Below, one piece after another: positions 14,561 to 20,269 of a DNA stretch of 64,000 nucleotides. Position numbers and translations under genes: made by a program. Origin of the DNA: Pseudovibrio sp. Ad37 (GTDB lineage: Bacteria; Pseudomonadota; Alphaproteobacteria; Rhizobiales; Stappiaceae); the NCBI RefSeq assembly GCF_001623075.1, contig NZ_LMCF01000218.1, positions 124,001 through 188,000 of the forward strand. The letters are read 5' to 3'. The notes under the pieces are model-generated. The model saw only the letters and a program-made list of their open reading frames with translations. It was not told the origin of the DNA and made no database searches. Within the stretch, counting starts at the first letter, position 1; each line of letters opens with the position of its first letter.

Positions 14561-15226
14561 TTATGCCAGCTTCAGCTGCGGAACCACGGTCAGATTCCGA
14601 ACAATTGTATTGCCCTCAACAGCCTTAAGTCCCTTCACTGAGATGAAGGTGACCAATGGTTCACAGGCAACAAGTGCCAGATAAGACAGAGCAAACTGCG
14701 CCCAAGCTGTAAATGGCGTAGCCACATCACCAATCATTAGCCAGAAACCAACCATGCCGGTTACACCAGCATAATACATCGCATCCAACTTCAGGATCTG
14801 CGCAAAAGTCAAACGTTTGGTCAGATCCTTAGCGAACAACTGACGGCCACTCAAATAATGTACAGAGATAAGCGGCAGCATCAAAGATAGGCTGTTGACC
14901 CCCAAATGGTACATGTCCTGCGGATCAAACGCGAACGCTTGCAACAGCAAGCCGAGCGCAAACCCAAGAAGAACAGGTGTAAATCCCAGCGTCAGATACA
15001 TGGCCATAGCACCGATAAAATGGAGTTCGGATGCTCCAACGGACATATGGAAGCTCTGCATGAAAATAGAAAAGAAAACCGCAGCCAACAGTGTCTTTAC
15101 AGGAATCAGCGGATCTTTCATAAATTCTGAGGCCTGCTCTTTGCAGCCCCACACAAAAACACCGACTGCACCTGCATTGGCAGCAATAACCTTGGCGGCG
15201 GAAACGTAACCCGGTTCAATATGCAT
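14561..15226 (-). CDS. CbiM-family cobalt/nickel ECF-type permease
   Basis: 221-residue membrane protein. MHIEPGYVSAAKVIAANAGA is the N-terminus of the CbiM-like energy-coupling-factor permeases, in which the first residues including His2 coordinate Co or Ni (family knowledge); this fixes the start at ATG 15226. ASELHFIGAMAMYLTLG and LLQAFAFDPQDMYHLGVNSL match conserved membrane segments. An adenosylcobalamin riboswitch immediately upstream makes cobalt for B12 the likely substrate. No CbiN, CbiQ or CbiO follows: a terminator and ettA come next, so the rest of the transporter must be encoded elsewhere or this works alone. Confidence 0.87.
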   Translation of the reverse strand: MHIEPGYVSAAKVIAANAGAVGVFVWGCKEQASEFMKDPLIPVKTLLAAVFFSIFMQSFHMSVGASELHFIGAMAMYLTLGFTPVLLGFALGLLLQAFAFDPQDMYHLGVNSLSLMLPLISVHYLSGRQLFAKDLTKRLTFAQILKLDAMYYAGVTGMVGFWLMIGDVATPFTAWAQFALSYLALVACEPLVTFISVKGLKAVEGNTIVRNLTVVPQLKLA

Positions 15227-15269
15227 ATAATATGCTCCTCTTCGCACCCTCCGTGCGGTCATGAGTTTA

Positions 15270-15450
15270 TGTCGTGTCGGGCAGGTTTCCTGGCTTATGG
15301 CTTTTGCGTCCTCCGCCTTCCCAGAGATCATCTCCAGTGGCTTTTAAGAAGAACGCACCACGTAACAGTTGCGGGGGCAGCTGCGGTTCGGGCCCATCTT
15401 TGGTCATCCCTACCGCATTCCCTTTTCATCCAAGAAGCTTGGCTTCTACA
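15270..15450 (-). ncRNA. Adenosylcobalamin riboswitch
   Basis: Read on the minus strand, all conserved blocks of the B12 element occur in order: AAGGGAATGCGGT (15424-15412), GCTGCCCCCGCAACTGT (15381-15365), AGCCACTGG (15342-15334), GGGAAGGC (15322-15315) and the B12 box GCCAGGAAACCTGCC (15294-15280). It ends about 45 bases before the CbiM-like start, where it can hide the ribosome site when B12 is plentiful. Confidence 0.95.
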
Positions 15451-15829: not shown

Positions 15830-16633
15830 TTAGTTCTTGCTATAAGTTCTCTCCGAAGGTGCCTGCCACGAATATTTCCTTAGCCAATGCTCCTCAGGAG
15901 AAACCACAAAGCTCCAGGAGTTCTGCTGCTCTCCAGAATCATCAGGAGTCTGAGTGGAAGCATTTTGGCTGGCAGAAATTTGGATTTTAAGCACCCCCTC
16001 ACCTTTTCCAGCAAGCTTCAGCAAGCCAAGATCACTGTGAGATCGTCCAAGAAAAATCTGGGGTGCTGTTCCTATCCTCTCCCAGATAGTTCGGGCAAGG
16101 TCGGTAGAAGACATCGGCGCTGCGTGGGGAGTAACCTCGATAACCCGAAATCTCGGAAGTCCGTAATTCAACTCCGCCATTGTGCGGTCTACTTCATGGT
16201 CTCCAAAGCTTAAAACCCAAATCTGAAAGTGATGCTCTTTTAAAAAGCCCACCAGCTCTTTTAGAGGTTGAAAAGCAAACTCTCTATACGTTGCACCAAC
16301 AGCCTTCGGCCCGTGTAATGACAGATGAGCACGTACACTCTCAGAGTAATCAGCAAAGCTACTGAAACTGTCGCCAGCTTCAGGTGGCGTCACTTCATTG
16401 TCTGCGCCAGCCAGCGCGTCACTCCATAAAGCCCCATCGCCAACCAAAACAGCAACACGGTCATCGAGTTTCACATATTCAGGGCTCCCAGCCCGAGCCA
16501 TACGCTCAATGCTTTCTACGATACCATGGCGCGCTGTGGTTGAGCTCCAACTCGGCAAGATGTTATCTCGCTCACCACCAGTTGGCTGCAAAACTGAAAC
16601 CGCTGAGTATAAAAACAAGCTGGACCACTGCAT
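15830..16633 (-). CDS. HAD-fold protein with lost catalytic motifs
   Basis: 267 residues, related to HAD-superfamily acid phosphatases by overall pattern: ILPSWSS at the N-terminus, an AVLVGDGALW strand, YREFAFQPLKELVGFLKEHH, WVLSFGDHEVDRTM and IFLGRSHSDLGLLKL. In active relatives motif I is DxDGT; here it reads V-G-D-G-A, so the nucleophile is Val. Motif IV GNSxGD reads GRSHSD. Only the motif II Ser is kept. I infer a pseudophosphatase or binding protein. The N-terminus has a weakly hydrophobic stretch that could be a poor signal sequence. Start at ATG 16633. Confidence 0.65.
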   Translation of the reverse strand: MQWSSLFLYSAVSVLQPTGGERDNILPSWSSTTARHGIVESIERMARAGSPEYVKLDDRVAVLVGDGALWSDALAGADNEVTPPEAGDSFSSFADYSESVRAHLSLHGPKAVGATYREFAFQPLKELVGFLKEHHFQIWVLSFGDHEVDRTMAELNYGLPRFRVIEVTPHAAPMSSTDLARTIWERIGTAPQIFLGRSHSDLGLLKLAGKGEGVLKIQISASQNASTQTPDDSGEQQNSWSFVVSPEEHWLRKYSWQAPSERTYSKN

Positions 16634-16939: not shown

Positions 16940-19900
16940 ATGCGCAATAATTTCAAACAATTATGCCGAGGAATTTCCTGGGGTACCCAAATGCATTTTC
17001 GAGCCCTCTTACTTCCTGTATTGCTCCTTTTCGTTTTAATTGGTTTATCGATACACTTCATGTCAGCGTCATCGTATGCGTCGATTTTCGATCCTGCGAC
17101 AGGTGGCCTTCACAATCAGCTCAATCAAGCTGAACTGCTCACTCAGCAGCAGAACCTATGGACCATATTGTCTGTTGGATTGTTCGCGCTTGGTGTTCTT
17201 GGAATACTGATTGTCTATTCCAGCCTGTTTATTCAAGAGCGTATGCGGGCGACGCGTTTTTTCAACCGTGCCCTTCTCCTCATCGCCATCAGTTCAGCAG
17301 CATGCCTGCTCATCGACACAACGCTGAACTTGCCTGATGTAACTGCACAATTGATCCTCTGGCAGTCTCAAGTGGAGTTCAGACCACAGGGAGACATCCA
17401 CGCCGCTGCAATCCACGCAGCAATGGCAGCGATGATCGCAGTTCTGGCTTATCTGCCTCTATCGCATCAGCTGACACTGCGTGCGACGATCATTCTCGCA
17501 CTCTCAATCGGCGGGGTCATCTACCCTGCCTACCTGAAGGGTGTCCAAGGGTTACTGCTTCATCTGATTAGCCAAAACACCGTGCTGTCAGTTGGTTTCG
17601 AGCAGATTGGCGGCGGTACCGTAGTCACATTGCTCGCAACCTTCGTAGCCTTTTCCGGCATGCTGGTGACCGGACTAAGAAACTCACCAGCGTTACCTGA
17701 GTACATTCTGCGCAACACACAAAACTACAACGTGCTGCAGATCAAAGCAGGCGCGGCGCTGATGGCCGTTGGCGGCATTGGCTTTTCTGTCGGTAACACA
17801 AGCATTTACTCAGGAGAGCTGGGCAGCGCAATCTTCAACGTTCTTGTCGCAACCGGTGTCTCGGTACTATTGGGTGTCGCCCTCGGCTTCTTTGCACCGC
17901 GCAAGGTCATGTACCCAACCATTTTGCTGAGCATGATCGGCGGCTTGTCCTCCGTTCTCGGAAACGCCCAGCATCTGACGGTTGCAGGCGTCGCACTTAT
18001 TGCTCTGACGGCCTCAGCTGCTTCTATAGCAGTCGCGCGCATTATCTATGCAAGGTCAAAGACCCACAAGGTCATCATTTACTACACCAGCCTTGGCATT
18101 GGCTCTCTGATTGGCCTTTTCGGCTTCACAACCGCACTACCAGCAGACCATGCGCTGGCTGGGTTCAGTCTGGATAACCTTATACTTCAGGCAGTTGGAG
18201 CTTTACTGACCATCCTTTGGGCCTTCTTGTCAGGTCTATTCCTGTTTACGGCCTTCAAATTTGCGAAGCAGTTTCGCCAAGCCGACGAAATTGATCTGAA
18301 TGAAACGCCGATTGTCAGCACCATCAGCCAGATGGAGAACTTGATCGGCAAGTTGGTTTGGCATGACGCCAAGCTGGATGAGCGCTTGCCGGTACGGGAC
18401 AGTGACCCGCAGGAACGCCTCGCTTCGCTCTTCAACACGTTCCTCGACAAGCTTCAGAGCGACGAAAAACGGCGGAAAATCAGCGAAACATCAAACAGTA
18501 AGCAGCAGGAAGAACTCAGCAAACTCGCCACATTTGCAGAAGGCGCATTCGAAGGTCTGGCCATCTCGACAGACGGTATTATCGTTGAATGTAACCACGT
18601 ACTCTACGAGCTGCTGGACTATCAGGCAGGTGAGATGCGCGGGACCAGTTTGCTGTCTCATGTCGCGCCAGACTTCCGCGAAAAAGCGCGTGAGAGCATT
18701 CTGGCCAATGAGCCGACCCCGAACGAAGTCATGCTTTTGAGCAAGTCTGGCGAGCGTATTCCGATTGAAGTTCGTGGTCGCTTGATGGAAGTGGCAGACG
18801 AGAACCTTCGTGTCTCAGCTGTACGTGATATGCGTAAGCAGAAAGAAGACGAAGCGCGCATTCTCCACCTCGCTCAGCATGACATGTTGACCGGCCTGCC
18901 GAACCGAACTTACTTCCGCGAGCGCTTCCAAAAAGCAATCGAAAACCAGGCAAACGCAGAGCAAACAATCTCTGCAGTCATGCTACTGGACCTGGATCGC
19001 TTCAAAGATATCAATGACTTATATGGCCACCCAATCGGTGACAAGCTCATTCAGACAGTGGCCCGCCGCCTCAATGCATGCGTCACCCATCACGACACAG
19101 TCGCCCGTCTCGGCGGGGATGAGTTTGCGATCATTCAGGTCAATCTCAAGACAACGGCTGAAGTCGGTCTGCTGACCAACAAAATTCTAGAGGTCCTGTC
19201 AAAGCCGATTCATGTTGGCAACAATATCACGGTCAGAACGAGCGCCAGCATTGGTATCGCGTTGATTCCAGACCATGGGACGGACCCGGATGAGCTGATG
19301 TCCAAGGCGGATATCGCGCTTTATGAGGCTAAAGAAGCTGGCCGAAACACCTTCGCGTTCTTCGAAGACAAGATGGAAGAGGCCATCCTGCTGAGAAGAA
19401 CAATGGAAGGCGACCTGCGTAACGCATTGGAAAATGAGGAACTTCAGCTTCACTTCCAACCGCAGGCACGCTCTGGCACCCGTTCCATTGTCGGCTTCGA
19501 GGCTCTTCTGCGTTGGAACCATCCGGAGAAGGGCCAAATTGGACCGAACAACTTCATCCCGGTTGCGGAGGAAAGTGGTCTGATCATTCCGATTGGCCGT
19601 TGGGTTCTGAATGAAGCCTGTGCACAAGCTTCTCAATGGCCGGAGCGGTATCGTGTGGGGGTGAACCTCAGTCCGGTACAGTTCTGTGATGAGTACCTCA
19701 TACAGGAAGTTGAAGGTGCATTGGCACGAAGTGGGCTGTCTCCGGAGCGTCTGGAACTGGAAATCACTGAGAGTGTACTGATCCACGACGACCGCCGCGC
19801 GCTCAATACCTTGAGGCAACTCAAAGAGTTAGGCATCACCATCGCGCTTGATGACTTCGGTACCGGCTACTCTTCTCTCAGCTATCTGCGTCGCTTCCCG

Positions 19901-20269
19901 TTTGATCGTCTGAAGATCGATCGCAGCTTTGTCAGCGGTGTAACTCAGACGCCGGAACTGGCAGCAATCATCCGTGCTGTCATCGATCTTGGGCAGGCTC
20001 TGGGAATGGAAGTTATCGCTGAAGGTGTTGAAACTGAACCAGAATTAGAGCTGTTGCGCAATGAATCCTGCGATGAAGTGCAAGGCTTTTTGATTGGCCG
20101 TCCGCAAGTGATGGATGGCGAGATGGCAAAACATGTCAGCAATGCCAATCTGGAAATTCAGGCGTTAGATCAATATATCGCAGCCCTGCAAGAAACCTCT
20201 CTGAAGCTAAAAGAGAAGGAAAAACAAGCAGCTGACAAGGCTCTGGGCATGATAGATGCAGGTGACTAG
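16940..20269 (+). CDS. Amt-like membrane sensor with PAS, GGDEF and EAL domains
   Basis: 1109 residues. The membrane part (about 20-445) has a dozen hydrophobic segments that align by eye with ammonium transporters: IGGGTVVTLLATFVAFSGML (residues 222-241) matches the GGTVVH segment of AmtB, IGFSVGNTS the WFGFNAGS segment, and the following helices agree in order. The twin pore histidines are gone (Thr230 for the first; no His in YYTSLGIGSLIGLF). Then follow PAS (about 525-640), GGDEF (RLGGDEFAII near 724, RxxD site lost as THHD) and an intact EAL domain (GFEALLRW, LEITESVL, DDFGTG, VIAEGVET). It is likely a membrane sensor with phosphodiesterase and possibly cyclase activity. ATG 16991 with GGGG upstream is an alternative start. 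Confidence 0.85.
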   Translation: MRNNFKQLCRGISWGTQMHFRALLLPVLLLFVLIGLSIHFMSASSYASIFDPATGGLHNQLNQAELLTQQQNLWTILSVGLFALGVLGILIVYSSLFIQERMRATRFFNRALLLIAISSAACLLIDTTLNLPDVTAQLILWQSQVEFRPQGDIHAAAIHAAMAAMIAVLAYLPLSHQLTLRATIILALSIGGVIYPAYLKGVQGLLLHLISQNTVLSVGFEQIGGGTVVTLLATFVAFSGMLVTGLRNSPALPEYILRNTQNYNVLQIKAGAALMAVGGIGFSVGNTSIYSGELGSAIFNVLVATGVSVLLGVALGFFAPRKVMYPTILLSMIGGLSSVLGNAQHLTVAGVALIALTASAASIAVARIIYARSKTHKVIIYYTSLGIGSLIGLFGFTTALPADHALAGFSLDNLILQAVGALLTILWAFLSGLFLFTAFKFAKQFRQADEIDLNETPIVSTISQMENLIGKLVWHDAKLDERLPVRDSDPQERLASLFNTFLDKLQSDEKRRKISETSNSKQQEELSKLATFAEGAFEGLAISTDGIIVECNHVLYELLDYQAGEMRGTSLLSHVAPDFREKARESILANEPTPNEVMLLSKSGERIPIEVRGRLMEVADENLRVSAVRDMRKQKEDEARILHLAQHDMLTGLPNRTYFRERFQKAIENQANAEQTISAVMLLDLDRFKDINDLYGHPIGDKLIQTVARRLNACVTHHDTVARLGGDEFAIIQVNLKTTAEVGLLTNKILEVLSKPIHVGNNITVRTSASIGIALIPDHGTDPDELMSKADIALYEAKEAGRNTFAFFEDKMEEAILLRRTMEGDLRNALENEELQLHFQPQARSGTRSIVGFEALLRWNHPEKGQIGPNNFIPVAEESGLIIPIGRWVLNEACAQASQWPERYRVGVNLSPVQFCDEYLIQEVEGALARSGLSPERLELEITESVLIHDDRRALNTLRQLKELGITIALDDFGTGYSSLSYLRRFPFDRLKIDRSFVSGVTQTPELAAIIRAVIDLGQALGMEVIAEGVETEPELELLRNESCDEVQGFLIGRPQVMDGEMAKHVSNANLEIQALDQYIAALQETSLKLKEKEKQAADKALGMIDAGD

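Follow-up and report, generated by a model that had tools for sequence, protein, structure and literature searches.

What becomes of an ammonium-transporter (Amt) fold that has lost nearly all its ammonium-handling residues while remaining joined to a c-di-GMP enzyme is the question raised by a locus of Pseudovibrio sp. Ad37. There, within a stretch of 64,000 nucleotides—which stretch, taken whole, we call the window—an ORF of 1109 codons encodes a protein whose Amt module lies N-terminal to the signalling output, as placed by the Pfam domains and by hhalign. The translation start is more likely Met18 (16991), since in-frame stops occur just upstream of that Met in the orthologues G015 and G021. 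The features to which we refer throughout are the following:

16940..20269, + strand: ORF encoding the whole protein (Amt-derived module, then linker, PAS, GGDEF, and EAL); probable true start at 16991, Met18
16991..17134, + strand: N-terminal segment, residues 18-65, with one hydrophobic stretch by hydropathy; possibly signal-peptide-like
17135..18280, + strand: residues 66-447, the degenerate Amt module, for which the Amt alignment predicts 11 helices
17627..17629, + strand: codon of Thr230, at the aligned position of AmtB His168 and Ks-Amt5 His171
17678..17746, + strand: loop 5, residues 247-269, on the cytoplasmic side in the Amt topology; 18 of 23 residues invariant in four sequences
18092..18094, + strand: codon of Leu385, at the aligned position of AmtB His318 and Ks-Amt5 His326
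18281..18544, + strand: linker, residues 448-535, which aligns with that of the intact Amt fusions; HAMP-like by eye
18557..18832, + strand: PAS domain, residues 540-631 (Pfam PAS_9)
18872..19348, + strand: GGDEF domain, residues 645-803 (Pfam); motif intact, Thr716 in place of the I-site Arg
19412..20104, + strand: EAL domain, residues 825-1055 (Pfam); catalytic residues intact

To ask whether the membrane half is an Amt at all is reasonable, in that Pfam gave no match in residues 1-447 of the window protein, and nothing before residue 540. When those residues were searched with phmmer against all the PDB sequences, the sole match at E ≤ 10 was 6eu6 (E 1.2e-5), which entry is Ks-Amt5, an Amt–histidine kinase sensor of Kuenenia (PMC5764959). 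A profile of five orthologues likewise recovered 6eu6 alone from the PDB (E 1.7e-6, profile positions 54-428), and hhalign against 14 Amt-fusion relatives scored 98.7% (E 3.3e-16, 266 columns). The module of one orthologue, G022, exceeded the cut-off of the Pfam Ammonium_transp model (PF00909; 23.2 bits), reaching 36 bits in a six-frame search and 31 bits as the module alone, and the orthologues of the second clade described below (clade B) reached 101-106 bits; the scan of the full-length G022 protein, for its part, listed no Amt match. At E ≤ 10, five orthologue modules yielded Ammonium_transp in one, DUF3290 in one (E 0.14), and nothing else from Pfam.

An AlphaFold2 model, built on an alignment that included 31 Amts from viral contigs, had a pLDDT of 63 and a pTM of 0.69; and the fold search with that model gave 49 PDB matches at E ≤ 0.001, all of them Amt, Mep, or Rh chains, the best being again 6eu6 (TM 0.69-0.70). 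The structural comparison proposed in the first-pass annotation thus favoured the Amt fold, though not as independent evidence, since the model was built on an Amt-rich alignment; moreover, TM1-TM2 were misaligned in that input, were poorly modelled, and are unreliable. A shallow alignment without Amt rows (the window protein plus L001-L003) produced a model with a pLDDT of 35, which we did not use. That a different membrane fold—MHYT, MASE, or 7TM—resembles Amt by chance might be argued from the silence of Pfam on the window module and on the full-length G022 protein; but the phmmer, profile, hhalign, and fold searches all pointed to Amt, one orthologue module lay above the Pfam Amt cut-off, the five modules scanned offered only the two families named, and no better match to any of those other folds was found by Pfam, profile, or fold search. 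We therefore reject that alternative as scarcely conceivable. Sequence profiles, profile–profile comparison, and fold search together confirmed that the module is Amt-derived, as the first-pass annotation had proposed in calling it a degenerate Amt fold.

The extent of the degeneration became evident from 15 pore and receptor positions scored on an alignment with Ks-Amt5, Sd-Amt1, and AmtB, of which positions 14 differ in the window protein. Neither pore histidine survives: at the position of AmtB His168 stands Thr230, exactly as had been predicted, and at that of His318 Leu385. In AmtB numbering, the outer filter has passed from Trp148 to Gln203 and from Ser219 to Asn286, Asp160 has become Gln222, and the gate residue Phe107 has become Met162, the second gate Phe being kept as F282. 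None of the six residues of the Ks-Amt5 NH4+ site is kept, since Q24, E31, N47, D50, T109, and T112 read V, Y, A, L, V, and Y, so that Tyr and Leu occupy the places of the acidic pair E31/D50; T51 of Ks-Amt5, being variable among the relatives, was left out of this scoring. Ks-Amt5, in contrast, retains the filter, the Phe gate, the twin His, and a two-ion NH4+ site (PMC5764959). The same 14 positions are changed in all five of the clade A sequences aligned (the clade of the window protein), with the replacing letter varying at five positions; G022, for example, has Glu at the Asp160 position. From this pattern we infer that the module would no longer conduct ammonium, nor read it by the Ks-Amt5/Sd-Amt1 mechanism.

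The loss was confined to the Pseudovibrio locus among the genomes examined, within a search that reaches lineages near this profile. In the family, 48 of 87 genomes match the module, and beyond this locus 43 proteins were found, 42 of them complete and one (G003) a broken ORF; in every one of the 42 the twin His and the six-residue receptor site are preserved, with S for T112, and the full set of 15 positions is intact in 41, the exception being G053a, which differs at S227. The comparison of homologues for loss of both His, which the first-pass annotation had suggested, therefore came out positive in the five clade A sequences and negative in the 42 family proteins outside the locus. Searches with the degenerate profile in 385 genomes of the class, 398 of the phylum, and 297 of the order—which sets overlap and each include the genome of the window—yielded 43 further loci. 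Both His were present in the nine Amts of the first batch and in the 33 Amts among the 34 loci of the second, L091 being no Amt. Those 33 comprise 29 fusion-length proteins with the whole six-residue site and four of AmtB type, where the class was assigned by length and seven of the 29 come from family genomes already counted.

Among the loci scored, the full set of Q24, E31, N47, D50, T109, and T/S112 occurred only in fusion-length proteins, while the transporter-length Amts scored lacked at least Q24 and D50. The immediate ancestor of the module was probably an ammonium receptor rather than a plain transporter, since its relatives with that architecture have Amt modules of the ammonium-receptor type; hence, of the earlier suggestion of a transporter turned sensor, the Amt origin holds and the plain transporter does not, the NH4+ receptor site having been lost along with the histidines. 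An ordinary Amt gene was found in all 16 genomes of the genus, and in that of the window genome both His are present and 12 of the 15 positions are retained (T112 read as T or S). Because the Amt tree placed this ordinary Amt beside Ks-Amt5 and Sd-Amt1, receptor and transporter Amts are not cleanly split by that tree, and the receptor ancestry rests on the architecture and the site residues.

Other Amt fusions were also observed. The Amt-PAS-GGDEF-EAL relative in G057 (L068:8510-11716) carries AGDEF in place of GGDEF, and a gene of that same architecture lies on an IMG/VR contig (L120:1992-5213), which is probably host sequence beside a provirus. An Amt module is joined to a methyl-accepting chemotaxis signalling domain in L044:8381-10813, L052:8955-11384, and L121:1818-4103, which fusions are candidate ammonium chemoreceptors; and in L069:8317-10986 an Amt is joined to an MCP signalling domain and, at the C-terminus, to a PilZ domain, so that a single chain combines Amt receptor, chemotaxis signalling, and c-di-GMP binding.

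Within this marine genus, we surveyed the locus in 16 Pseudovibrio genomes, the synteny being conserved, with a 267-aa protein on one side of the gene and, on the other, two genes which we take to be sbcC and sbcD. Sequences related to residues 1-447 occurred in P. sp. Alg231-02 (100% identity), in P. ascidiaceicola (96%), and, divided between two frames, in P. denitrificans (89%). The clade A form occurred in seven genomes (G000, G013, G015, G017, G022, G023, and G024, of which G017 is frameshifted) and clade B in two: G027, which keeps Trp148, Asp160, His168, Trp212, and Ser219 (AmtB) but neither the other His nor the receptor site, and G018, which resembles G027 up to an in-frame stop. In G021 the protein has 688 aa and a clade A-like N-terminus that runs straight into the end of TM11, with the module missing and the linker, PAS, GGDEF, and EAL retained (81% identity over residues 434-1109), while in G019 and G020 the module is reduced to a single hydrophobic helix; PAS was detected in all three. 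The gene is absent at the locus in G014, G016, and G026, and EAL fragments remain there in G025. Wherever present, the GGDEF-EAL half is similar across the locus.

On the tree of the three neighbouring proteins these conditions require seven state changes, the shuffled mean being 8.6. In the GGDEF-EAL tree, G021 grouped with clade A (96/98) and inside it at 86/87, and the intact fusions formed one group (94/76), with a single very distant outgroup. Clades A and B joined in the Amt tree (99/96), which grouping is weak on account of the very long branches; N47 is replaced by A in both clades, and T112 by Tyr in clade A and G027 and by Phe in G018. As for the surroundings, the 267-aa protein (window 15830-16633, − strand) has no Pfam match and diverges fast despite the synteny, with 27-98% identity between Pseudovibrio species; and at 14561-15331 (− strand) lies a CbiM-type cobalt-uptake membrane protein adjoining the gene of an ABC ATPase that carries two ABC domains.

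The output half agrees with the first-pass annotation, which had read a PAS, a GGDEF without I-site, and an intact EAL. The GGDEF motif is intact at 725-729, and in the inhibitory RxxD site, which is not obligatory, Thr716 replaces the Arg; that Arg is kept in 17 of 19 intact Amt-PAS-GGDEF-EAL relatives and is absent from all 11 proteins scored at the Pseudovibrio locus. The catalytic positions checked in the EAL are all present, namely E854, N909, E941, D971, D972, K992, E1028, and Q1048, which we take to be the residues that matter. The best NCBIfam model was the phosphodiesterase DibA, at 456 bits far below its cut-off of 980. Judged from its sequence, the output would be mainly that of a phosphodiesterase. 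In the G022 orthologue (L040:7971-11105), a 52-residue in-frame gap in the EAL removes the catalytic Asn, and that protein is probably inactive as a phosphodiesterase.

Constraint on the module was gauged by dN/dS over residues 66-447. The values were 0.044 (G000-G013) and 0.068 (G000-G015); for G015-G024 the value of 0.099 was obtained with dS saturated, and for distant pairs, where dS is saturated, we claim no ratio. The EAL gave 0.005 and 0.012 in the former two pairs, so that the module evolves faster than the enzyme half yet is constrained by purifying selection. Four diverse clade A sequences agree at 166 of the 382 module positions, and in this clade the conservation of the module peaks in loop 5 (18 of 23); of the 21-residue windows, those beginning at 250 and 251 rank highest with 18 of 21 invariant, a score reached by 47 of 5000 shuffles in a test that ignores local correlation. 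Loop 5 was discussed as a possible coupling element in Ks-Amt5 (PMC5764959). The same four sequences share invariant polar residues at 283-293 and 342-345 as well: S283, T287, S288, Y290, S291, E293, N342, Q344, and H345. By AmtB topology, we assume both stretches to be on the periplasmic side.

The explanation that we favour, and to which we would give roughly an even chance, is that an Amt fusion of the ammonium-receptor type has lost the twin His, the outer filter, and the NH4+ site while keeping the Amt fold and the coupling surface, through which some other input is passed on. An ancestral ammonium receptor would thus have lost its ammonium sites and retained the fold and the coupling loop; another input would have replaced ammonium at the module, preferably at a remodelled periplasmic vestibule lined by the nine invariant polar residues just listed; and the signal would travel via the conserved loop 5 and the linker to the PAS-gated c-di-GMP enzyme, mainly a phosphodiesterase. 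The vestibule pocket is a candidate, resting on residues invariant in four sequences, and we accordingly put forward more tentatively the narrower proposal of a receptor of Amt fold turned toward a different ligand, which would be read in the former periplasmic vestibule and would act on c-di-GMP turnover by way of loop 5 and the linker. A ligand-free module whose only role is to hold the enzyme in the membrane and to oligomerise it, with the PAS as the real sensor, seems to us somewhat doubtful. Such a scaffold would accord with the persistence of the output half when the module is missing (G021, which keeps linker, PAS, GGDEF, and EAL) or is a single helix (G019 and G020), with the detection of the PAS in those three proteins, and with the peak of conservation in the cytoplasmic coupling loop; but a pure scaffold would not need the invariant polar patches placed in the periplasm, and the purifying selection on the module also speaks against it.

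The repeated loss or breakage at the locus (G021, G019, G020, G014, G016, G026, and G025), together with the frameshift in G017 and the in-frame stop in G018, might instead suggest a functionless module decaying toward loss, which possibility is, however, improbable: simple decay is disfavoured by a module dN/dS of 0.04-0.07 in the two pairs with usable dS, and the invariant patches are retained across 56-96% identity. Ammonium might still be sensed via a newly made site, as could be thought from the relatives of the same architecture that carry the ammonium receptor site, and from the ordinary Amt gene throughout the genus, which implies that ammonium uptake still matters; against this, none of the six conserved residues of the receptor site is retained, nor is the W/S filter, and the positions of the acidic pair hold Tyr and Leu, so that we consider a new ammonium site very improbable. 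All in all, the Pseudovibrio module was probably either re-tuned to some signal other than ammonium or retained as a scaffold in the membrane.

With respect to known systems, human RhD and RhCE are proteins of the Amt/Rh fold without the twin His, and are not thought to transport; unlike the window protein, they belong to a distant branch and bear no fused signalling enzyme. In Sd-Amt1 of Shewanella denitrificans, the Amt module is presumably followed by HAMP and a diguanylate cyclase. The structures of that protein (PDB 8qj3, 8qj4, and 8qpf), whose titles call it 'Receptor Sd-Amt1' in the ON or OFF state, resemble the window module in fold and in the use of an Amt as a receptor, whereas in Sd-Amt1 both His are intact and so is the receptor site, all of which the window protein, continuing into PAS-GGDEF-EAL, has lost. 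Ks-Amt5 (6eu6), the best match of the window module in both sequence and fold, has a kinase as its output instead of PAS-GGDEF-EAL. Nearest in architecture are the Stappiaceae Amt-PAS-GGDEF-EAL proteins, 19 of which were aligned in full: they share the domain order (two scanned in full, motifs scored in 19) and an alignable linker, and are the sister group of the locus proteins in the GGDEF-EAL tree, but have an intact Amt module, with 20-28% identity to that of the window protein, and the I-site Arg in 17 of the 19.

Amt receptors fused to signalling enzymes are thus already known from Ks-Amt5 (PMC5764959) and from Sd-Amt1, and the use of an Amt module as a receptor is not new. Of an Amt-GGDEF-EAL protein we found no description in the freely available literature searched (including PMC10433425, PMC12918730, PMC2330054, PMC7646526, PMC8534201, and PMC5764959). 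Nor did our literature and genome searches meet another constrained Amt fusion with lost ammonium sites.

The finding separates the Amt fold from ammonium. Because degenerate, half-degenerate, and module-less versions occur at one syntenic locus in a single genus, the question is directly testable; and if the reading of a post-ammonium receptor is true, the module-less sister proteins would serve as natural controls. Amt-fold sensors should accordingly not all be annotated as ammonium sensors, and, if the module still signals, the Amt fold can act as a general membrane receptor.
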